From Nocardioides luteus (GTDB taxonomy: Bacteria; Actinomycetota; Actinomycetes; Propionibacteriales; Nocardioidaceae), in NCBI RefSeq assembly GCF_015752315.1, contig NZ_JADOVJ010000001.1:2968501-3032500 (forward strand): a stretch of DNA of 64,000 nucleotides. The letters run 5' to 3'. How positions within the stretch are numbered: the stretch's first letter is position 1; every line of letters starts with the position of its first letter. Made by a program: the position numbers and the translations under genes. Shown piece after piece: positions 41,785 to 51,902 of the stretch. Below the pieces are notes generated by a model. That model was given only the letters and a program-made list of their open reading frames with translations, had not been told where the DNA came from and did no database searches.

Positions 41785-43413
41785 ATGTCCACCCCATCAG
41801 CCATCACCCTGCGCGACCTCACGTTCGAGTGGCCCGACGGCACCGTCGCGCTCGACCAGGTCAACGGCACCTTCGGCACCGACCGGACCGGCCTGATCGG
41901 TCGCAACGGCACCGGCAAGTCCACCCTGCTCCGTCTCATCGCCGGCGAGCTGTCCCCGAGCTCGGGGCAGATCGACACCGGCGGCGAGGTCGGCTACCTG
42001 CCGCAGACGCTCACCCTCCGGCGGGAGACCACGATCGCCGAGCTGCTTGGCATCGACGCCACCCTCACCGCGATCCGGGCCATCGAGTCCGGCGAGGTCG
42101 ATCAGCGCCACTTCGACACGATCGGCGACGACTGGGACATCGAGTCCCGGGCCGACGAGGCCCTGGACCAGATCGGCTTCTCTGCCGCCGATCTCGACCG
42201 CCGCGTCGCCGAGATCTCCGGCGGGGAGGGCATGCTGATCGCGATCACCGGCCTGCGGATCCGCCGCACTCCGATCACGCTGCTCGACGAGCCCACGAAC
42301 AACCTGGACCGGGCCACCCGCGCCAGGCTCGCCGAGTTCGTCGACCAGTGGCCGGGGACGCTCGTGATCGTCAGCCACGACCTCGAGCTGCTCGAGCACA
42401 TGGACAGCACGACCGAGCTGTACGCCGGGACGCTGAGCACGTTCGGCGGACCCTACAGCGCGTGGAAGGAGCACCAGGAGCAGGAGCAGGCGGCCGCTCT
42501 CCAGACCGCTCGGTCAGCGCAGCAGGCGCTCAAGGTCGAGAAGCGGCAGCGGATCGAGGCGGAGACGAAGCTCGCCCGCCGTGAGCGGACCGCGAAGAAG
42601 ACCCAGAAGGACGGCGGGATCCCGAAGATCCTCGCCGGCAACCGGGCCAGCAAGGCCCAGGCGTCCGCAGGCTCCCTGCGCTCGACGCTGGACGACAAGG
42701 TCAAGGCCGCCCAGGCCGCCGTGGACGCAGCCGGTGCCCGCGTACGCAGCGAGGAGCACATCCACCTCACCCTCCCCGACCCCGGCGTGCCCCGCGGCCG
42801 GCGGATCGCGGAGCTCGAGGACGAGGGTCGGACGGTCGTGGTCCAGGGGCCGGAGCGGGTGGCACTGGTCGGCGCGAACGGCTCCGGCAAGTCGACCCTG
42901 CTCGCTCATCTCGTGCAGGGATCCGACCCGGTGGCCGGCCGGCCGCACGGTCGTCTCCTCACCGACCAGGTGGGCCTCCTCCCCCAGCGCCTCGACGGCC
43001 TCGACGAGGAGGCCAGCGCGATGGAGAACGTCCGCGCCGTCGCACCGGAGACACCTTCGGGCACCATCCGCAACCAGCTCGCCCGCCTGCTCCTGCGCGG
43101 CGCCAGCGTGGACCGCCCGGTGCGTACGCTCTCGGGCGGCGAGCGCTTCCGCGTCTCCCTCGCCCGTCTGCTCCTGGCCGACCCGCCCGCGCAGCTGCTG
43201 ATCCTCGACGAGCCGACGAACAACCTCGACATCACCAGCGTCGAGCAGCTCGCCGAGGCGCTCGACGCCTACCGCGGCGCGTTGCTCGTGGTCAGCCACG
43301 ACTTCGGGTTCCTGGAGCGGATCGGCATCGACACGGTCGTCGAGCTCGACGCGGAGGGTCGCATGCACCAGCGTCGGGGGCTGGACGAGGCCGGGCCGAC
43401 CTCACCCGCCTGA
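41785..43413 (+). CDS. ABC-F ribosomal-protection-type ATPase
   Basis: 542 residues with two ABC domains and no membrane segment. Walker A motifs are GRNGTGKST and GANGSGKST, signatures ISGGEG and LSGGERFR, Walker B LLDEPTNNLD twice. The interdomain linker (about residues 230-320) is long, charged and helical. ABC-F proteins act on the ribosome, many displacing antibiotics from the peptidyl-transferase region. The leader peptide and hairpins suggest drug- or stalling-induced expression. It ends 12 bases inside the convergent glycosyltransferase gene. Confidence 0.93.
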   Translation: MSTPSAITLRDLTFEWPDGTVALDQVNGTFGTDRTGLIGRNGTGKSTLLRLIAGELSPSSGQIDTGGEVGYLPQTLTLRRETTIAELLGIDATLTAIRAIESGEVDQRHFDTIGDDWDIESRADEALDQIGFSAADLDRRVAEISGGEGMLIAITGLRIRRTPITLLDEPTNNLDRATRARLAEFVDQWPGTLVIVSHDLELLEHMDSTTELYAGTLSTFGGPYSAWKEHQEQEQAAALQTARSAQQALKVEKRQRIEAETKLARRERTAKKTQKDGGIPKILAGNRASKAQASAGSLRSTLDDKVKAAQAAVDAAGARVRSEEHIHLTLPDPGVPRGRRIAELEDEGRTVVVQGPERVALVGANGSGKSTLLAHLVQGSDPVAGRPHGRLLTDQVGLLPQRLDGLDEEASAMENVRAVAPETPSGTIRNQLARLLLRGASVDRPVRTLSGGERFRVSLARLLLADPPAQLLILDEPTNNLDITSVEQLAEALDAYRGALLVVSHDFGFLERIGIDTVVELDAEGRMHQRRGLDEAGPTSPA

Positions 43414-44508
43414 CAGGGTGCGGAGAGTGTGCCCGTAGAAGATCTGGTGGGCCCGCGCGGCGCGCTCCCAGGTGTAGCCGGCGGCGAGCTCGCGCCCCGC
43501 CGCCGGCTCGGGCGGCGTGTCCAGCACCTTGCCCAGCGCTACGGCGATCTCCGCCGGCGAGGTGGCATAGGCGACGGTCTCGGCAAAGACCTCCCGCAGC
43601 ACCGGCAGGTCGCGGGCCACGACGGGTACGCCGGCGGCGAGCGCCTCCAGGGCGGCGAGCCCGAAGCCCTCCTTGGTCGAGACCATCGCCAGTGCGCGGG
43701 CCTCGGCCACCAGGGAAGGCAGCTCGTCCTCGGCGATCACCCCGGTGACGACGACCGGCACGCCCAGCTCACGGGCCCGGGCGTCGAAGGCGGCCCGGTA
43801 GTCGCGGTAGTCGAAGAGGGTCTCACCGCCGCCGAAGACCAGCGTGAGGTCCTGGTGGCGGGGGTCGGAGTCGCGCAGCTCGGCGTACGCCTCGAGCAGG
43901 TCGAGCGACCCCTTGCGCGGCTCGATCCCGCCGAGCGCGAGGACGTAGCCGCCGAGGCGGTCCCGCCACACCGCACGCCCGGCGTGGTCGTCGGCTCCGG
44001 CCGCGAACCGGGCCGCGTCGACGCCGTTGGGGATGACCTCCGGGGTGAACCCCCATCCGGCCGCGACCTCGTCGGCCACCGACCGGGACACGCAGATCCG
44101 GGCGTACGGCTCGACGACGGCCTTCTCGTGGCAGGCGGCGAGCTGCGGGGTGGTGAAGTGGTCGAGATGGTGGATCGTGCGGACGCACGGAAGCGCGGCG
44201 TTGGCGCTGATGCAGTCCTGGGCGTGCACGATGTCGTAGCCGTCCCGCTCCCGCTCGAACGCGGTCCGCAGCACGGCGATGGAGCGCACGATCCGCTCCC
44301 CCGCCGACTCCTCCTCACGTGCCTCGAACGGCACGGCGTGGACGGTGACGGCCGGATCGACCGGGCGGAAGAACTCCGTGTCGCCGTGGCGGCCGAGGGT
44401 CCACACGTGGACGTCCTCGCCGAGCGCAGCCAGTGCCTCGGCGAGCGCCAGCGTGTGCACGACGCCGCCGCGCGGCCGGGTGGAGTAGGTGAGCAGCGCG
44501 ATCCTCAC
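43402..44508 (-). CDS. Glycosyltransferase, MSMEG_0565 family (Nit1C-type cluster)
   Basis: 368-residue GT4-like glycosyltransferase from GTG 44508, overlapping the upstream stop by GTGA. The N-terminus VRIALLTYSTRPRGGVVHTL is the MSMEG_0565-family opening; the donor-binding half shows LALGGIEPRKGSLDLLEAY and the E-x7-E region STKEGFGLAALEALA. It is the last of nine coupled genes. In other genomes this enzyme occurs in most but not all copies of the cluster. Acceptor and sugar are unknown. Its 3' end overlaps the convergent ABC-F gene. Confidence 0.9.
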   Translation of the reverse strand: MRIALLTYSTRPRGGVVHTLALAEALAALGEDVHVWTLGRHGDTEFFRPVDPAVTVHAVPFEAREEESAGERIVRSIAVLRTAFERERDGYDIVHAQDCISANAALPCVRTIHHLDHFTTPQLAACHEKAVVEPYARICVSRSVADEVAAGWGFTPEVIPNGVDAARFAAGADDHAGRAVWRDRLGGYVLALGGIEPRKGSLDLLEAYAELRDSDPRHQDLTLVFGGGETLFDYRDYRAAFDARARELGVPVVVTGVIAEDELPSLVAEARALAMVSTKEGFGLAALEALAAGVPVVARDLPVLREVFAETVAYATSPAEIAVALGKVLDTPPEPAAGRELAAGYTWERAARAHQIFYGHTLRTLSGG

Positions 44509-45359
44509 TGCGGGGATCCCGGGAGCTGGTAGGCCGTCGGGGTCAGCTCCTTGAGGTGGTGGAGGACCCGGCGGGACCGGGCGATCTCCGCCTCGACGTC
44601 GATCTCCGCGACGGCGAGGCCGCCCTTGGAGGTGGTGCGCGCGAGGATCTCGCCACCGGGACCGACGACCTTGGCCTGCCCGAGGAACCGCAGCCCGCCC
44701 ATCACCCCGGTCTGGTTGGAGGAGACCCAGACGACCTGGTTCTCGGCCGCCCGGGCCTGGTCGTAAAGGTCGAAGAGCCGGGACTGGCGGTCCTGAGGGA
44801 GCCGCGAGGCGCGGTCGGTGACCGACGCCGGCCAGGCCGAGAGGCACGCGATCACCGAGGCGCCGTCGAGGGCGAGCGTGCGGGCCGCCTCCGGGAAGGT
44901 CTTGTCGTAGTCGATGAGCATCCCGAGCCGCCCGACCGGGGTGTCGAAGGCCGCGAAGCTCTCCCCCGCCGCGTAGACCAGCGACTCGCCGGCGGGCTGG
45001 TGCACCTTGCGGTGGCGCCCGAGGATCCCGTCGCCGCTGAGGCAGACGGCGGAGTTGTAGAGCCGCGCCTGGCCGTCGGCGACGACCTCCTCGGCGTAGC
45101 CGAGGCAGACGACCATCTCGCCGGCCATCGCGATCACCCGGGCCAGCTCGAAGGAGTCCTCGGTGAGTGCGGGCGGGAGCGCGAGCGGGTCGGGATGACG
45201 CAGGTCGGAGAGGTAGCCGCCGAGGGTCGCGTCCGGGAGGACCAGCAGGCCGACCCCGTTGCGGCGGGCGTCCTCGACGATCCCTTCGAGCTTGGCGACC
45301 GCGCGGGTCAGGTCGCGCCCGAAGTGGGCCGCAACCGCCCCGATACGCACGTTCGACAT
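44505..45359 (-). CDS. Nitrilase-fold protein lacking catalytic residues (probable inactive paralogue)
   Basis: 284 residues from ATG 45359 (ATG 45383 possible). The whole carbon-nitrogen hydrolase fold aligns with the intact nitrilase two genes upstream. The catalytic Lys118 is kept (RHRKVHQPAGE), but the nucleophile Cys is Asp150 (LIDYDKTFPE versus LICYDKAFPE) and the catalytic Glu is Asp43 (LPDATLGGY versus LPEACLGGY). GAC in place of TGC/TGT needs two base changes, so a sequencing slip is unlikely. It should not hydrolyse nitriles by the normal thioester route; a structural, regulatory or altered role is likely. Confidence 0.88.
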   Translation of the reverse strand: MSNVRIGAVAAHFGRDLTRAVAKLEGIVEDARRNGVGLLVLPDATLGGYLSDLRHPDPLALPPALTEDSFELARVIAMAGEMVVCLGYAEEVVADGQARLYNSAVCLSGDGILGRHRKVHQPAGESLVYAAGESFAAFDTPVGRLGMLIDYDKTFPEAARTLALDGASVIACLSAWPASVTDRASRLPQDRQSRLFDLYDQARAAENQVVWVSSNQTGVMGGLRFLGQAKVVGPGGEILARTTSKGGLAVAEIDVEAEIARSRRVLHHLKELTPTAYQLPGSPQ

Positions 45360-45404
45360 GGTTCTCAACCTATCCGTCGTCATCGTTCCGGCCCGGGATC
45401 TCCC

Positions 45405-46730
45405 TCAGGCCACCGCCGAGGCGTCCAACGGCGCCGGGGACCGCCGCCGCGCCAGGTCGGCGGCGGGCTCGGTGGCCGGACCGGTCCGGCCCGTTCGACC
45501 GGTGATCTCACCGGTGACGTATTCCGCATCCGCGGCGACGCCGAGGAAGCGGCCGGAGCCCCAGGTGTGCAGCCAGGGCAGACCGAGGAAGTAGAGCCCG
45601 GCGACGCCGGTCACGCCCCGGGTGTGGGTCGGCCGCCCGCTCCCGTCGAAGACGCCGGCGCGGACCCAGCGGTAGTCGGGCCGGTAGCCGATCGCCCAGA
45701 TCACCGTCGTGATGCCCGCCTCGGCGAGGTCGAGGCGGGTCGGTTCGGCCTCGGGCTCCCAGACCGGCCGGTACGCCTCGGCCGGCACGACGTCGAGACC
45801 CTGCGTCTCGATGTAGGCGTCGATGTCGCGGCAGATCGAGCGGTAGACGTCGTCGGCGGAGTCGAGGGCGTCGCGCAGCGTCGGTGCGATCGCGAGATCG
45901 GTGCCCGCCCCGGACTCGAGCCGCCCGTAGAGCCGCATGCCCTCGGCGGCGAACTGGCGCAGGTCGATGTCCCGCCCGCCGTCGCGGCCGGTGACGTAGT
46001 GGTTGGTCTTCTCGCGAGCGGCCGGCCCGCCCGGGTAGCTGGCGACCGGGGTGTCGTAGAGCCCCATCTCGGCGAGCCAGGTCATGCAGTCACGCCCGCG
46101 GTGGAACCGGGCGACCCGGGGCGCGTCGCCGATCGCGAGGTGCACCTGGCGTCCCTCCAGGTGCAGGTCCTCGGCGATCTGCGCACCGGACTGCCCCGAG
46201 CCGACCACCAGCACGCCGCCGGGGCGAAGCCGCGAGGCGCTCTTGTAGTCGGCCGAGTGCAGCTGGTCGACGGCGGGGTCGAGCGCGGGCGCCCAGGCCG
46301 GCACGACCGGTACGTGGTAGCCGCCGGTCGCGACCACGACCTGCTCGACCTCCCAGGCCTCGGCGCCCTCGGGTCCCTCGGCCTCGACCAGGAACCCGCC
46401 GTCGGCGCGCTGGGTCAGCGAGGTCACCCGGGTGTGCTCGCGCAGCGGCGGGCCGAAGCTCGGCGCGTAGCCGGCGAGCCACCTCACCACCTCGTCGCGG
46501 GTCATGAAGCCGTCCGGGTCGGGCCCGGCGTACTCGTAGCCGGGCAGGCGGCAGTGCCAGTTGGGCGTCACCAGGGTGAAGTTGTCCCAGCGGGTCTCGG
46601 CCCACTCGTGGCCGGCGGTGCCCGCCTCGAGGACGACGTGGTCCACGCCGTCGCGGACGAGGAACCAGCTGGCGGCCAGGCCTGCCTGCCCGCCGCCGAC
46701 GATCGCGACGGTGGTGCGGTGGGTGGTCAT
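45405..46730 (-). CDS. Flavin-dependent oxidoreductase, MSMEG_0569 family
   Basis: 441 residues from ATG 46730, overlapping the previous stop (ATGA). FAD motif VAIVGGGQAGLAASWFL and NADPH motif VLVVGSGQSGAQIAEDL, as in flavin monooxygenase-like proteins, with WAIGYRPDYRW near the C-terminus. It is one of the fixed members of the Nit1C/MSMEG_0565-0572 set. It may oxidise a nitrogen-containing intermediate; the actual reaction is unknown. A 45-base gap separates it from the nitrilase-like paralogue. Confidence 0.9.
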   Translation of the reverse strand: MTTHRTTVAIVGGGQAGLAASWFLVRDGVDHVVLEAGTAGHEWAETRWDNFTLVTPNWHCRLPGYEYAGPDPDGFMTRDEVVRWLAGYAPSFGPPLREHTRVTSLTQRADGGFLVEAEGPEGAEAWEVEQVVVATGGYHVPVVPAWAPALDPAVDQLHSADYKSASRLRPGGVLVVGSGQSGAQIAEDLHLEGRQVHLAIGDAPRVARFHRGRDCMTWLAEMGLYDTPVASYPGGPAAREKTNHYVTGRDGGRDIDLRQFAAEGMRLYGRLESGAGTDLAIAPTLRDALDSADDVYRSICRDIDAYIETQGLDVVPAEAYRPVWEPEAEPTRLDLAEAGITTVIWAIGYRPDYRWVRAGVFDGSGRPTHTRGVTGVAGLYFLGLPWLHTWGSGRFLGVAADAEYVTGEITGRTGRTGPATEPAADLARRRSPAPLDASAVA

Positions 46731-47044
46731 CGGATCTCCCGGGGTGTCGAGGTGGCGGGCAGGGGCGGGTGCATCGCGAGGACGGTGACGTACTGGCCGA
46801 ACTCGTACGCAGCTGCCGAGGCGCGCAGCTGATCGGCCGTCGCCATCGCGCTGGTGCAGGCGAAGCCGAACTTCGCGCGGACCCGCTCGGAGGCGGTCGC
46901 CAGAGCGGTGAGGCTGCGGTCGAGGAAGTCGTCGACGGCGTACGTCCCGCCGACCGCGAGGTGGTCGTGCATCACCAGCGAGGGTGAGTAGCAGTCCTCG
47001 ACCCGCCCGTCGGGCCAGCGCACGGTGAAGGTCATCTCAGGCAT
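46727..47044 (-). CDS. MSMEG_0570-family small nitrogen-starvation protein
   Basis: 105 residues from ATG 47044 (MPEMTFTVRWPDG), overlapping the nitrilase stop by eight bases and coupled to the flavoprotein gene by ATGA. The MPEM-F-VRWPDG...CYSPSLVM opening is characteristic of this family, found only in these clusters. Function unknown; the family name comes from its cluster partners' response to nitrogen starvation. Confidence 0.88.
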   Translation of the reverse strand: MPEMTFTVRWPDGRVEDCYSPSLVMHDHLAVGGTYAVDDFLDRSLTALATASERVRAKFGFACTSAMATADQLRASAAAYEFGQYVTVLAMHPPLPATSTPREIR

Positions 47045-47951
47045 GCCCCTCACCCACCGGGCTGAACGGCTCGGCGGTCGCCAGCGCGGAGGGGTACGCC
47101 TCGGGCCGGCGGTCGCGCAGATGGAACATCGCCCGGCGGGCCGTCGCCAGGGCGCTGGGCACGTCCAGCTCGGCCACGGCCATGCCGGCGTCGACGCCGG
47201 TGGTCGCCAGGACGTCTCCGCCCGGACCGACCACCTTCGCGTTGGCGACGAAGCGGAGCTTGCCGAAGGTCCCGTGCTGGTTGGAGGCGAGCCAGACGAC
47301 CTGGTTCTCGAGTGCCCTGGCGGCGTCGAAGAGGTTGAACCGCTTCGTCCACCGGTCGTCCTCGATCGAGGCGCTGGTGGCGGTGCGGGAGGCCGGCCAG
47401 GCGGAGATGCAGGCGATGACCTCGGCGCCGTCGACGGCGAGCGCGCGGGCTCCCTCGGGGAACGCCTTGTCGTAGCAGATCAGGGTGCCGATCCGGCCGG
47501 CCGGCGTATCGACGCAGCCGAACCCGTCGCCGGCCGCGTAGTAGAGGTTCTCCCCCAGCGGCTGGTGCACCTTGCGGTGGGCACCCAGCACGCCGTCGCC
47601 GGTGACGACGGCGGCCGTGTTGTAGCGGTCGGCGCCGTCGGACTCGCACAGGCCGACGACCACGGTCATGTCTCCGGCCAGCGCGGCGACCCGCGCGAGC
47701 TCGGGCCCGTCGATGTCCATCACCGGCGGGAGGTCGTCGGGCGCCTCGTCGTGGTTGCCGTCGCGCCCGGCGCCGAGGACGGAGAGGTAGCCGCCGAGAC
47801 AGGCCTCGGGAAGGGCGAGCAGGCCGACGCCTGCCTGGCGGGCGTCGTCGATGAGGGCGCCGATCTGGGCGAGGTTCTCGTCCACGTCGCGGCCGAAGCC
47901 GGCGCAGACGGCCGCGACGGCGCTGCCGCGGTGGGTGTCGGTGGTGGTCAT
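47037..47951 (-). CDS. Nitrilase (Nit1C cluster, Sll0784-like), catalytically intact
   Basis: 304 residues from ATG 47951. The nitrilase-superfamily triad is complete: Glu49 (LPEACLGGY), Lys127 (AHRKVHQPLGEN) and Cys159 (LICYDKAFPEGAR); Glu134 is the usual supporting acid. It hydrolyses a nitrile or amide bond. In Nit1C clusters the nitrilase has been linked to use of cyanide as nitrogen source. It is coupled by ATGA to the acetyltransferase/AIRS fusion upstream. Confidence 0.93.
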   Translation of the reverse strand: MTTTDTHRGSAVAAVCAGFGRDVDENLAQIGALIDDARQAGVGLLALPEACLGGYLSVLGAGRDGNHDEAPDDLPPVMDIDGPELARVAALAGDMTVVVGLCESDGADRYNTAAVVTGDGVLGAHRKVHQPLGENLYYAAGDGFGCVDTPAGRIGTLICYDKAFPEGARALAVDGAEVIACISAWPASRTATSASIEDDRWTKRFNLFDAARALENQVVWLASNQHGTFGKLRFVANAKVVGPGGDVLATTGVDAGMAVAELDVPSALATARRAMFHLRDRRPEAYPSALATAEPFSPVGEGHA

Positions 47952-49366
47952 GTCGCAGGTCCTAGTCCGGTGACGGTGTGGTCGATGGCGTCGGTGACGG
48001 TCCCGTCCGGCCAGCGCAGGCCGACGCCGGTGCCCGCGACGAGCTCGCCGCAGACGGCGGAGGAGACGAAGCCGGGCAGGCCGGCCGGTGTCGCGGCGCG
48101 GCCGGGTTCCTCGGCCGTGAGCATCGCGAAGCCCGGGAAGCAGGTGAACCAGTCCGCGGTCGCGGCTGCCTCAGGGGTGGGGACGGCGGCGACGTCGATG
48201 ATCGCGCGACAGCCGCTGGCCTCGGCCAGCATGCCGGCGGTGCCGATCAGGCCGGCCATGCTGACGTCCTTGGCGGCCGTCGGGGCCAGTGCGGGCACGA
48301 CTCCGGACAGCGCCCGCAGCTCGGCCGAGGTGCGGTGCGAGGACGAGTCCCACTGCCGACCCTGGTAGCCGGGCCGCCACCCTCCGCCGAGGTCCGCGCT
48401 CAGGCGCAGCCGGTGGCCGGGTGCTCCCCCGCCGCCCGGAACCGGGCGTTCCGCGCGCCCGAGGGCGGTGACCGAGAGCGCGGCCGGGACGCCGAGCTGG
48501 GTGTGCCCACCGAGGACGGGTACGCCCCACGCCTGCGCCGCCTCGGCCAGCCCGCGCACGATCCGGCGGGCGAAGGAGGCGTCCCGGGCGCCGATGGCGT
48601 CGAGCAGGCCGACCGGCGCCGCGCCCATCGCGGAGAGGTCGTTGACGTTGACGAGGACCGCGCACCAGCCGGCCCACTCGGGGTCGCGCTCCACCATCGA
48701 GGGCAGGATCGCGTCGCAGGCGGCGACCAGGTCGCTGCCGGGGACGGGGGCGCCGTCGTCACCCCGGAACCCGGGGGTCGACCGCCCGACGAGGGCACCG
48801 ATCAGGTCGCCGAGGGGCGACTTGGTGGCCTCGGAGAGCTGCCGGATGCGTTCCACCGGCCACTCCATGACCACATGGGTCATGTCGTGGAGGTGGATCC
48901 GCTCGCGCGGGACCCAGCCCAGCCGCCGGAAGAGTCCCTCGTTGCGGGCCTGGACGGTGGCGTCGAAGCGAAGCGCACCGGCCTGCTCGGCCGCCGCGCA
49001 GGCCGCCCGGACCAGCGCCGCGCCGACGCCGAGCAGCTGGCGGGCGTCGGCCTTGACCGCCAGCCGGCTCCCGCGCCACCAACCCACGTCAGGTGCGTCC
49101 GGCTGCGCCGGGTGGAGGCGTACGCCGCCCAGGACCTCGCCGTCGTCAGCCCGGGCGAGCAGCACGATCCGGCGCGGGTCCTCGTCGACGTCGTCGAGGT
49201 CGGAGCCGGCGAAGAGGCCCTGCTCGGTGACGAAGACCTCGCGGCGCAGGCGGAGGTAGGCCTCCCGATCGGCCGCGGTCTCGGCGCGGACCACGCGGTA
49301 GCCCACCAGGCTCGGCGCCCGGCGCACCCCACCGGCCAGGATGACGTCGTCGAGCAGCTCGGTCAT
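47948..49366 (-). CDS. Fused GNAT acetyltransferase (Sll0786-like) and AIR-synthase-related protein (Sll0787-like)
   Basis: 472 residues from ATG 49366, overlapping the radical SAM stop (ATGA). Residues about 1-165 form a GNAT domain (RLRREVFVTEQGLF, acetyl-CoA loop region LLGVGAALVRAA, RFDATVQARNEGLFRRLGW). From about 170 on the PurM/AIRS fold appears (DAILPSMVERDPEWAG, LVNVNDLSAMGAAPVGLLDA, TAAKDVSMAGLIGTAGMLAE). In cyanobacteria these are separate proteins. The AIRS part suggests ATP-dependent activation of an amide or similar; the substrate is unknown. Confidence 0.88.
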   Translation of the reverse strand: MTELLDDVILAGGVRRAPSLVGYRVVRAETAADREAYLRLRREVFVTEQGLFAGSDLDDVDEDPRRIVLLARADDGEVLGGVRLHPAQPDAPDVGWWRGSRLAVKADARQLLGVGAALVRAACAAAEQAGALRFDATVQARNEGLFRRLGWVPRERIHLHDMTHVVMEWPVERIRQLSEATKSPLGDLIGALVGRSTPGFRGDDGAPVPGSDLVAACDAILPSMVERDPEWAGWCAVLVNVNDLSAMGAAPVGLLDAIGARDASFARRIVRGLAEAAQAWGVPVLGGHTQLGVPAALSVTALGRAERPVPGGGGAPGHRLRLSADLGGGWRPGYQGRQWDSSSHRTSAELRALSGVVPALAPTAAKDVSMAGLIGTAGMLAEASGCRAIIDVAAVPTPEAAATADWFTCFPGFAMLTAEEPGRAATPAGLPGFVSSAVCGELVAGTGVGLRWPDGTVTDAIDHTVTGLGPAT

Positions 49367-50442
49367 GCCGACTCCTCCCCGCAGGCTCCCAGTGCCGAGC
49401 AGGCACCGCACGACGCGCAGCCGGCGGCCTGGTCGGCGCCGGCCATCCCGGCCCGGCGCAGGAGCGCGGCGACGCGCGAGGTGACCCGGTAGACGTCGGC
49501 GTGCGGTGGCGCGGGGACGGCGTCGACGTCCTTGGCGAGGGTGCCGTCCAGCGGGCGGTAGGGCACCACGAACGGGTAGACGCCCATCGCGATGAGCTCC
49601 TCGCAGCCCGCGACCAGCTCGTCGGGATCCTCGCCGAGGCCGACCAAGATATAGGTCGAGACCTGGTTCCAGCCGAAGACGCGGACCGCCTCCGCCCACG
49701 CAGCACGATACTCACTCATGGGCACCGAGCCCTTGCCCGGCATCCAGCGCAGCCGGGCCGCGTCGTCGAGCGACTCGACGTGGATGCCGATCGAGCGGGC
49801 GCCGGCGTCGTAGAGCTCCTGGATCGAGGCGAGGTCACCCGGCGGCTCGCACTGCACCTGGATGGGCAGGTCGGGGACCGCCTCGTGCACCGCGCGTACG
49901 CAGCGCGCCAGATGGGTCGCCCCGCGGTCGCGTCCCCGGGAGGTACCCGTGGTCATCACCATCTGGGTGACCCCGTCGAGCTCGACGGCCGCCTTGGCGA
50001 CCTCGGCGAGCTGGGCGGGCTGCTTGACCGCGACCGTGGAGCCCTGGCGCAGTGACTCCTCGATCGCGCAGAAGCGGCATCGCTCCTCCTCCGCATAGCG
50101 GGCGCAGGTCTGCACGACCGTCGTGGCGAGCACGTTGGCCGAGTGCAGGCGGGCGATCTTGTCGTAGCCGACGCCGTCTGCGGTGGTCAGGTCGTAGAAG
50201 CGCGGCCGGGCGACGGCCTCGACCCCGAGACCGGTGTCGGCGCCGTCGAGGAGCAGCTTGCCGCCGCGTACGGAATAGGGGCTGCGGGGGTTGAGCGGGA
50301 TGGCCGCGCCGACCCCGTCCAGGAGGACGTGGCCGTCGTCGCTCGGTCCGGCGCCCGAGCGGCGGGCGACGGGGGCGTCGAGCAGGCGGATCCCCTGGAT
50401 GGCGACGTCGACGCGGGTGCTGGACGAGATCGGCGAGGTCAT
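49363..50442 (-). CDS. Radical SAM enzyme, MSMEG_0568 family
   Basis: 359 residues from ATG 50442. The iron-sulfur motif is Cys113, Cys122, Cys125 (QTCARYAEEERCRFCAIEES), that is CX8CX2C rather than the standard CX3CX2C. The TIM-barrel region shows MVMTTGTSRGRDRG, IQVQCEPPGD and IGIHVESLDD. The C-terminus is cysteine-rich (CASCGACSALGACG), suggesting a second cluster. It is the signature enzyme of the Nit1C cluster and probably does the key C-H or C-N chemistry; the product is unknown. Confidence 0.9.
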   Translation of the reverse strand: MTSPISSSTRVDVAIQGIRLLDAPVARRSGAGPSDDGHVLLDGVGAAIPLNPRSPYSVRGGKLLLDGADTGLGVEAVARPRFYDLTTADGVGYDKIARLHSANVLATTVVQTCARYAEEERCRFCAIEESLRQGSTVAVKQPAQLAEVAKAAVELDGVTQMVMTTGTSRGRDRGATHLARCVRAVHEAVPDLPIQVQCEPPGDLASIQELYDAGARSIGIHVESLDDAARLRWMPGKGSVPMSEYRAAWAEAVRVFGWNQVSTYILVGLGEDPDELVAGCEELIAMGVYPFVVPYRPLDGTLAKDVDAVPAPPHADVYRVTSRVAALLRRAGMAGADQAAGCASCGACSALGACGEESA

Positions 50443-50452
50443 GGCCGGTCCC

Positions 50453-50989
50453 TCAGAGGTTGTAGGTCGAGTTGATGATGGCGCCCTTGCGGGCGTAGTG
50501 GATCAGCGCGTCCTGCACGTCGAGCGGGTGCGAGGGCACGACGCCCTCGATCAGGTCCTCCTCGCGCAGGCCGTGGAGGCCCATCCCGAAGCGGCAGCAG
50601 AAGACCGTGCCGCCCTCCTTGATGAACGTCTCGATGGCGCCGTTGGTGTTGAGCTCGCCGGGGAAGCCGGCGTCACCCATGGTCGGGAAGCCGCGCGAGG
50701 CCATGCAGGCGAGCGTGCCCGGGCCGTAGAAGTAGATGGCCGACTCGAAGCCTTTCCGCAGCGCGCGCGTGGCCTGCAGGACGGCGACGAAGCTGACCGA
50801 GGACTCGTGCGGGATGCCGTGGACGAGGGTGAAGTAGGTCTCCCCCTCCTCGGCCTGGTAGTCGGGGAAGATCTTGGTCGAGCCGTAGATGTTGGTGCCC
50901 GGCTGCGACGAGGGGTGCGGGATCTCGCCGAGCGACTTGGCCATGTTCTCGGCGATCTGGGCGTCGATGTCAGCGGTGTCAGTGGTCAC
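50453..50989 (-). CDS. MSMEG_0572/Sll0783-family nitrogen-starvation response protein
   Basis: 178 residues from ATG 50989. A conserved block around the middle (HGIPHESSVSFVAVLQATRA, YFYGPGTLACMASRGFPTMG) and a CCRFGMGLHGLREEDLIEGV segment identify the family. The Synechocystis member is induced by nitrogen starvation and is needed for polyhydroxybutyrate accumulation under it. The fold may be DsrE-like, but this is a guess. It precedes the radical SAM gene by ten bases. Confidence 0.9.
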   Translation of the reverse strand: MTTDTADIDAQIAENMAKSLGEIPHPSSQPGTNIYGSTKIFPDYQAEEGETYFTLVHGIPHESSVSFVAVLQATRALRKGFESAIYFYGPGTLACMASRGFPTMGDAGFPGELNTNGAIETFIKEGGTVFCCRFGMGLHGLREEDLIEGVVPSHPLDVQDALIHYARKGAIINSTYNL

Positions 50990-51077: not shown

Positions 51078-51902
51078 TCAGCCGTAGAGGGCTGAGAAGT
51101 TGTGGTGGAAGAAGGCGTCGGCGAGCTCGCCGTCGCCGGCCGCGGCGGAGAGACGGGCGTGCTCGCCAGCGAAGTCGCCCCACGGGGCGTCGGTGGCGAA
51201 GAGGATGCGGTCGTGCCCGACGCCGCGGCGCTCGATCTCCTGGACCAGCCAGATCGGCGCGAAGCCGATCGCCCAGCTGGTGTCGGTGTAGACCTGCATC
51301 CCGGCCTCGATCCAGTCGAAGAGCCGGCCGCCGATGAGCTTCATGTGGCCGCTCATCCCGCCGCCGAGGTGCACGAGATGGAGACGTACGTCCCGGGCAT
51401 AGCGCTCCACGAGCGTGCCGATCTGGTCGACGTCGGAGGCGGCGCCGGGCGAGGTGTGCACGTGCACGGTCAGGTCGTGCTCGCGCGCGGTGGCGAAGAC
51501 CTTGTCGAGCTGCTCGAGGCAGTCCGGGTCGGTGGGGTGGCCGCCGAGCAGGAAGCTGGTCTTGAGGGCGGCCACGCCGTCCTCGCCGGCGAGGGCGAGG
51601 GCGGCGTCGTTGCGGGCGGAGTCGGTCGGCTTCGGCGAGACCCACAGGCCGCACCGGATCCGGTCGTCGCTCTGCGCGGCCTCGATGGCCAGGTGGTTGA
51701 GGTCGAAGGCGGCGTCCGGGTCGGGCACGCCGTAGTTCGGCAGCACCAGCGCGCGCTCGATCCGGTCGGCATCGAGGTCGGCCACCAGCTCCTTCACGGT
51801 GTCGCGCGCGGTCACGTCGGCGTTGATCGCGGGACCCCCGTAGAAGGGGTACGCCGGCAGCCGGCCGATGTGGCGGTGCGCATCGCGAAGGGGCTTGGTC
51901 AT
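51078..51902 (-). CDS. Amidohydrolase-family protein, first gene of the Nit1C-type operon
   Basis: 274-residue metal-dependent hydrolase (amidohydrolase_2 group). ATG 51902 follows GAAGG. Metal/active-site elements of the TIM barrel are present: DAHRHIG (HxH), HVHTSPG, LVHLGGGMSG and the late Asp in FATDAPWGDF. It lies 88 bases before the nitrogen-starvation gene and downstream of two GlnR-like boxes. Members of this group hydrolyse amides or decarboxylate acids; the substrate may be a product of the pathway encoded below it. Confidence 0.85.
   Translation of the reverse strand: MTKPLRDAHRHIGRLPAYPFYGGPAINADVTARDTVKELVADLDADRIERALVLPNYGVPDPDAAFDLNHLAIEAAQSDDRIRCGLWVSPKPTDSARNDAALALAGEDGVAALKTSFLLGGHPTDPDCLEQLDKVFATAREHDLTVHVHTSPGAASDVDQIGTLVERYARDVRLHLVHLGGGMSGHMKLIGGRLFDWIEAGMQVYTDTSWAIGFAPIWLVQEIERRGVGHDRILFATDAPWGDFAGEHARLSAAAGDGELADAFFHHNFSALYG

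Follow-up and report, generated by a model that had tools for sequence, protein, structure and literature searches.

In the nitrilase superfamily the first glutamate of the active site acts as the general base, and proteins of this fold commonly oligomerise. Pseudoenzymes as a kind are already known; to our knowledge, no whole nitrilase-fold clade with an aspartate in place of the cysteine has been described. Cysteine mutants in the PDB (C146A in 6ypa, C158S in 5h8k and 5h8l, C171A in 8hpc and C145S in 5nz5) keep the fold after loss of the cysteine, and 6ypa, 5h8l and 8hpc are ligand-bound by title; those proteins, however, are laboratory-made, whereas the one described here carries a naturally fixed aspartate. 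It is NitD, the Asp copy, one of two nitrilase-fold proteins encoded in a single cluster within a 64,000-nucleotide stretch of Nocardioides luteus DNA, referred to below as the window. The other, NitC, is the intact Cys copy, a carbon-nitrogen hydrolase family protein of the same operon. The cluster and the codons of interest are as follows.

43402..44508, minus strand: MSMEG_0565-family glycosyltransferase, GT (TIGR04047, 436 bits, cut-off 259.85)
44505..45359, minus strand: Asp copy (NitD), nitrilase fold, 284 aa (ORF reading, Pfam, AF2 and PDB matches)
44910..44912, minus strand: Asp150 codon GAC at the catalytic Cys position
44985..44987, minus strand: Glu125 codon, second active-site Glu, retained
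45006..45008, minus strand: Lys118 codon, catalytic Lys, retained
45231..45233, minus strand: Asp43 codon GAC at the first catalytic Glu position, variable in the clade
45405..46730, minus strand: MSMEG_0569-family flavin-dependent oxidoreductase (TIGR04046, 618 bits, cut-off 498)
46727..47053, minus strand: MSMEG_0570-family small protein (TIGR04042, 121 bits, cut-off 79.85)
47037..47951, minus strand: intact Cys copy (NitC) with Glu, Lys, Glu and Cys all present, 55% identical to NitD
47948..49402, minus strand: GNAT and AIR-synthase-like fusion, MSMEG_0567 (TIGR04045 and TIGR04050, above cut-off)
49363..50442, minus strand: MSMEG_0568-family radical SAM protein (TIGR04043, 500 bits, cut-off 303.7)
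50453..50989, minus strand: MSMEG_0572/Sll0783-family protein (TIGR04044, 235 bits, cut-off 109.85)
51078..51902, minus strand: amidohydrolase-superfamily gene, a frequent companion (PF04909, 1.9e-16)

The genes matching TIGR04043, TIGR04044, TIGR04045/TIGR04050, TIGR04042, TIGR04046 and TIGR04047 lie adjacent and above cut-off, which is the composition of a Nit1C-type cluster. Clusters with the Nit6803-type nitrilase (TIGR04048) have the companion families TIGR04043, TIGR04044, TIGR04045, TIGR04046 and TIGR04047 in common with the window, but NitD, which matched eight families, gave no TIGR04048 match at E 1e-3 and NitC scored 50.9 bits, far under the cut-off of 502.6. Judged by these scores, neither nitrilase-fold gene of the window belongs to the Nit6803 family model. 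The best PDB sequence match of NitC is N-carbamoylputrescine amidohydrolase (6.1e-21); set against that N-carbamoylputrescine/D-carbamoylase-like branch of PF00795, the Asp copy has Asp for Cys and has lost the first Glu. The amidohydrolase gene was present in 55 of the 80 named loci described below (the best 80 of at least 540 relatives), a set in which contig ends truncate several loci. In the window, nitC shares 17 bases with the MSMEG_0570 gene, which is read in another frame.

The active site and fold of NitD

The nitD frame runs on the minus strand from an ATG at 45359 to a stop at 44505-44507 and comprises 284 sense codons; if translation began at another ATG, at 45383, the product would have 292 aa. 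The first-pass annotation had described a second nitrilase-fold gene with an intact frame but without its catalytic Cys and Glu, and on rereading its observations hold. The frame is open in the window and intact in many genera; LICYDKAFPE of NitC is LIDYDKTFPE in NitD, and LPEACLGGY is LPDATLGGY, the latter change (Glu to Asp43) being GAG against GAC. The exchange of Cys for Asp150 does need two base substitutions (TGC in NitC, GAC in NitD), and Lys118 is preserved (HRKVHQP). Glu125, which that annotation did not mention, is also kept. These four positions correspond to the Cys, first Glu, Lys and second Glu of the superfamily active site.

The Pfam CN_hydrolase match of NitD (2.5e-35) is above the gathering score, and the AF2 model (pLDDT 87.5) predicts a nitrilase fold and has nitrilase-fold PDB matches; a low-confidence loop of the model, at 179-185, contains R183, so that any placing of this residue in the pocket is tentative. 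By fold and sequence, then, NitD is a member of the nitrilase superfamily, and it is classed outside the Cys-Glu-Lys hydrolases because the two defining residues tested, the nucleophilic Cys and the first catalytic Glu, are absent. Selenocysteine was considered and rejected: a single in-frame TGA was flagged in many Asp copies, and in the 30 frames read it is an ordinary stop near the C-terminal end, the active-site codons being Asp.

Conservation, selection and descent of the Asp copy

If relatives kept Cys and Glu, the window copy would be a lone mutant, and we therefore read the active-site positions across genomes. In a sample of the order, 38 of 293 genomes matched at E 1e-40 and 37 of the 38 have two copies; the Asp copies read, from the loci of 30 of these 38 genomes, all have Asp150 (30/30), with Asp, Gly or His at position 43. 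A scan of named genomes confirmed at least 540 relatives, and in the best 80 loci, a set biased in that it was ranked by similarity to the Asp copy, although the search patterns held no active-site motif, Asp150 was again invariant (80/80). An alignment of 87 sequences (the window copy added to those of the 80 named and six further loci) has Asp150 and Lys118 in 87/87 and Glu125 in 86/87, the remaining one being Asp, whereas position 43 is Asp in 79, His in 3, Tyr in 2, Gln in 2 and Asn in 1. Glu, Lys, Glu and Cys are all present in 81/81 companion Cys copies, a count from which those of L080 and L126, recovered as fragments, were dropped. A second, less biased set of 63 Asp copies, made up of 62 sampled genomes, some possibly of the same species as named ones, and the named locus L085, includes the truncated G093 copy, from which position 43 is absent. 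Asp150 and Lys118 are present in 63/63 of this set, and Cys in 76/76 Cys copies. Genera among the matches listed are Nocardioides, Aeromicrobium, Amycolatopsis, Gordonia, Williamsia, Streptomyces, Mycolicibacterium, Arthrobacter, Saccharopolyspora and Actinomadura, and the nearest named copies listed are those of Nocardioides luteus (95% identical) and Nocardioides sp. YR527 (97%).

The possibility of a lone mutant among Cys- and Glu-bearing relatives thus failed: Asp150 is invariant in every set read, and across all sets position 43 is Asp, Gly, His, Asn, Gln or Tyr, never Glu. The proposed conserved clade with Asp at both positions stands in its first half only; since Asp150 is invariant and position 43 varies, it is position 150 that is the conserved trait. 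Three features expected of a pseudoenzyme family are present, namely a predicted fold that is kept, a catalytic residue that is lost, and a state conserved among orthologues. Because the copies examined in many actinobacteria share the same swap, it is very likely that the Asp copy has been maintained for a new task and is not a broken enzyme, and the first-pass suggestion of a purpose other than Cys-based nitrilase or amidase chemistry is very likely correct in view of the conserved Asp clade and its intact frames.

Divergence gives a similar picture. Over 780 pairs of 40 genomes the mean identity was 69.7% for Asp copies and 66.6% for Cys copies, and the Asp copies were more alike than the Cys copies in 592 of the 780 (non-independent) pairs and equal in 10. 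In three close pairs with the window, the Asp copy gave dN/dS values of 0.055-0.205 and the Cys copy values of 0.093-0.245; medians from 748 distant pairs (0.413 and 0.418, respectively) were discarded, as synonymous sites look saturated. These rates indicate that the Asp copies are under purifying selection and about as constrained as the active copy. A decaying pseudogene, or an annotation or sequencing artefact, is hence scarcely credible. Decay does occur, as in genome G093, where a truncated copy lies beside the GT gene and the radical SAM gene is absent. Intact frames in many genera with one fixed residue, close-pair dN/dS well below 1 and a divergence no faster than that of the active copy nevertheless refute this reading.

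The Asp copies also have conserved residues of their own. At eight positions both sets of 40 are at least 90% conserved but the residues differ (Asp copy/Cys copy): 150 D/C, 154 T/A, 192 Q/W, 195 L/R, 205 A/L, 226 L/V, 266 L/M and 271 E/D; Trp192 and Arg195 of the Cys copy are thus Gln and Leu in the Asp copy. Residues gained by the Asp set of 40 are D52, P56, C85, R183, R186, Q228, R241 and K245. Among the 63 Asp copies, T154 and R183 are each found in 62, R186 in 60, Q192, L195 and A205 in all 63, and K245 in 61. New near-invariant Arg, Lys and Gln residues argue against a dead scaffold, which would hardly gain them. In a sequence alignment the Trp of NitC at 192 lies opposite a Trp of N-carbamoylputrescine amidohydrolase, and since the Asp copy has Gln there, it has apparently lost a trait of that branch. 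C85, present in 62 of the 63 Asp copies, may be an alternative nucleophile.

This pattern bears on whether the Asp copy might be a new, acid-based enzyme, in which Asp150 and Lys118, with or without Glu125, would catalyse chemistry that needs no Cys (for example hydration, elimination, isomerisation or decarboxylation) on an intermediate of the cluster. The invariance of Asp150 and Lys118, the near-invariance of Glu125, the new near-invariant charged residues, and the replacement of the first Glu while a new acid occupies the nucleophile position are all consistent with this. The loss of the first Glu and the free drift of position 43 (D, G, H, N, Q, Y), however, imply that the old proton relay is gone, and an invariant salt bridge serving ligand binding would give the same pattern, so that we regard such an enzyme as possible but doubtful.

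The origin of the Asp copy was followed in a 62-row tree (28 Asp and 28 Cys copies, selected from those collected, and six others), from which positions 43 and 150 were excluded and whose root was not inferred. A branch with support 99/93 separates the Asp copies from all other rows, and another (99/88) does so for the cluster Cys copies, a separate clade. A further split (98/84) places the Asp copies with four solo Cys enzymes, which come from other actinobacterial classes, opposite the cluster Cys copies and two cluster-linked Cys copies of those classes. Standing apart from the cluster Cys copies, the Asp copy is unlike a recent copy of the cluster nitrilase, and a recent tandem duplication of nitC is unsupported by this unrooted tree. 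Two of the four solo relatives (L129 and L133), from two different families of the phylum, lie directly upstream of a glutamine-hydrolysing asparagine synthase gene.

Distribution of the Asp copy and its coupling to the glycosyltransferase gene

In a class-wide sample 49 of 394 genomes matched: 32 have both copies, 16 the Cys copy only and one the Asp copy only. The 16, out of 48 with a Cys copy, lack the Asp copy with six candidates scored per genome; in three of them (G772, G785 and G862) all candidates were scored and the Asp copy was absent. Fifteen of the 16 share one family code (f93), which suggests few independent losses. G710, the genome in which the Asp copy stands alone, gave no match for the MSMEG_0568 radical SAM protein, and its next-best relative of the Asp copy is at E 5.9e-16. 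Its copy keeps Asp150, Lys118, R183, R186, Q192 and K245 but has V154, V226, V266 and G271, altered residues that suggest it is possibly drifting; found alone, it might act independently of the cluster or be a remnant.

Of 396 genomes sampled across the phylum, 9 matched. Five of these carry both copies, G435 and G672 a single Cys copy, and G392 and G413 two Cys copies each, a cluster-linked one among them. The latter two genomes have no Asp copy and, genome-wide, no GT above the TIGR04047 cut-off; a 29%-identical glycosyltransferase lies about 6 kb away in G392. Six loci from other actinobacterial classes (L161-L166) carry radical SAM, GNAT and GT genes, and the amidohydrolase and MSMEG_0572 genes are each present in five of the six; no nitrilase-fold match to the two-copy profile, which a distant nitrilase could escape, was found in the 15-20 kb read. 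This patchy presence across class, phylum and the clusters of other classes indicates that the Asp copy is an optional, lineage-specific addition to the cluster.

A functional substitute in the gap between nitC and the GT gene was considered and rejected: 14 of the 16 Cys-only loci hold a different flavin monooxygenase, at the place of the usual flavin enzyme. The usual flavin enzyme occurs without the Asp copy in two Cys-only genomes (G718 and G862), and the alternative one accompanies the Asp copy in G705, so that neither flavin-enzyme type is strictly tied to the Asp copy. The unrelated monooxygenase, seen in L221-L228 and L230-L235 (f93) and in L253 (G705), lies beside nitC where checked; that of L223 has 534 aa and weak Trp_halogenase and FAD_binding_3 matches, and a TIGR04046-type flavin enzyme was not found in these stretches. 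A scan of viral contigs found no relative of the Asp copy. Four Rhodococcus plasmids have two matching places each, and in the one read, Rhodococcus qingshengii plasmid pN9T4-1 (L150, 5612-13098), both copies were confirmed; this two-copy cluster lies on a linear, mobilizable-typed plasmid between two IS256 transposase genes.

The gene order of the cluster places the Asp copy next to the GT gene. The latter is directly downstream of nitD in 76 of the 80 named loci (the best 80 of at least 540); of the exceptions, L073 and L113 end at or near a contig edge, L112 has the GT gene upstream and L085 has none in 9 kb downstream. All 39 loci of one sampled set and 19 of 21 further ones show the same order, the exceptions being G951, where the Asp copy and cluster genes are present and the GT gene was not found in the stretch read, and G710, where it was not found in the 20 kb seen. 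In the window the GTG start of the GT gene overlaps the TGA stop of nitD (GTGA). Counting start/stop overlaps of 4 or 1 bases, with longer ones scored as apart, nitD overlaps the GT gene in 47 of 59 loci, the window included, against 4 of 21 for nitC and nitD; elsewhere in the operon, the GNAT-AIR fusion gene overlaps nitC in 55/66 and the MSMEG_0570 gene overlaps the flavin enzyme gene in 28/30. By these counts nitC is coupled to the GNAT-AIR gene and nitD to the GT gene; as overlaps are common across the operon, however, overlap alone is no proof of a physical partner. Distance correlations among seven cluster genes in 66 loci were weak and followed gene order, the Asp copy giving 0.35 with the flavin enzyme and 0.30 with the GT, which is mild evidence only, explainable by shared inheritance of neighbours. 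All 16 Cys-only genomes of the class sample carry the GT gene, as do clusters of other classes that lack the Asp copy; the GT gene therefore does not need the Asp copy.

The same data weigh on the first-pass proposal that the Asp copy is a pseudo-subunit, which would assemble with the Cys copy into a mixed dimer or spiral and tune the stability or activity of the latter. Both copies are found together in 37 of 38 matching order genomes, in 32 of 49 of the class sample and on the one Rhodococcus plasmid read, the four such plasmids having two matching places each; nitC is present in 76 of the best 80 named loci, the other four being on short contigs or near contig ends; the two genes are directly adjacent in many loci; and oligomerisation would suit the fold. 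The copies are, however, not always together, as an obligate nitrilase partner would be; the overlap of nitD with GT is commoner than that with nitC; the 98/84 grouping is with solo Cys enzymes, apart from the cluster Cys copy; and the partial distance correlation between Asp and Cys copies is only 0.18. A pseudo-subunit is therefore not favoured and we consider it distinctly unlikely, although a facultative hetero-oligomer may form.

The annotation had also raised a sensor; in such a protein the former active site would bind a nitrile, an amide or a nitrogen-status metabolite, with signalling to other cluster proteins. A conserved pocket without Cys would suit such a protein, and NCBIfam names neighbouring families nitrogen starvation response proteins; CN_hydrolase is, however, the sole Pfam match at 1e-3, with no DNA-binding or signalling domain, and the usual place of the gene is the downstream end of an enzyme gene cluster. 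On balance we consider a sensor very unlikely.

A possible role for the Asp copy and its meaning

The reading we prefer, somewhat tentatively, is that the Asp copy is an old nitrilase paralogue of single origin that was neofunctionalised, probably into a non-hydrolytic pocket protein with an Asp150-Lys118 pair that serves the GT step. The Asp copy would have lost the Cys-Glu-Lys hydrolase chemistry and been retained by selection to serve a different function in the Nit1C-type cluster of actinobacteria. Asp150 may take over the charge of the lost Glu and pair with Lys118 in the old active-site pocket; the remodelled pocket could then bind a pathway intermediate and perhaps carry out acid-base chemistry on it. 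The protein would work in step with the GT, for example by holding or presenting the GT acceptor or by activating the GT, and not as a nitrilase subunit. A bolder form of this picture, which we consider fairly unlikely, is that the Asp copy is an active enzyme that uses Asp150 and Lys118 for acid-base or carboxylate chemistry in place of the Cys-thioester and acts on a pathway intermediate already glycosylated or about to be, a change that would have been fixed once and kept across Actinomycetes. If true, this would be a natural change of reaction type within the nitrilase superfamily.

In the three annotated plasmid records that carry it, the Asp copy is named a carbon-nitrogen hydrolase family protein, which its active site does not bear out. 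The fixed change from Cys to Asp, together with the clade's own conserved residues, offers a handle on the unsolved steps of Nit1C-type clusters. The natural presence and absence of the copy among class genomes (16 with the Cys copy only, one with the Asp copy only) provides ready comparisons for metabolite work. The Asp copy also offers a natural setting in which to study how a nitrilase fold is recruited to a different function.
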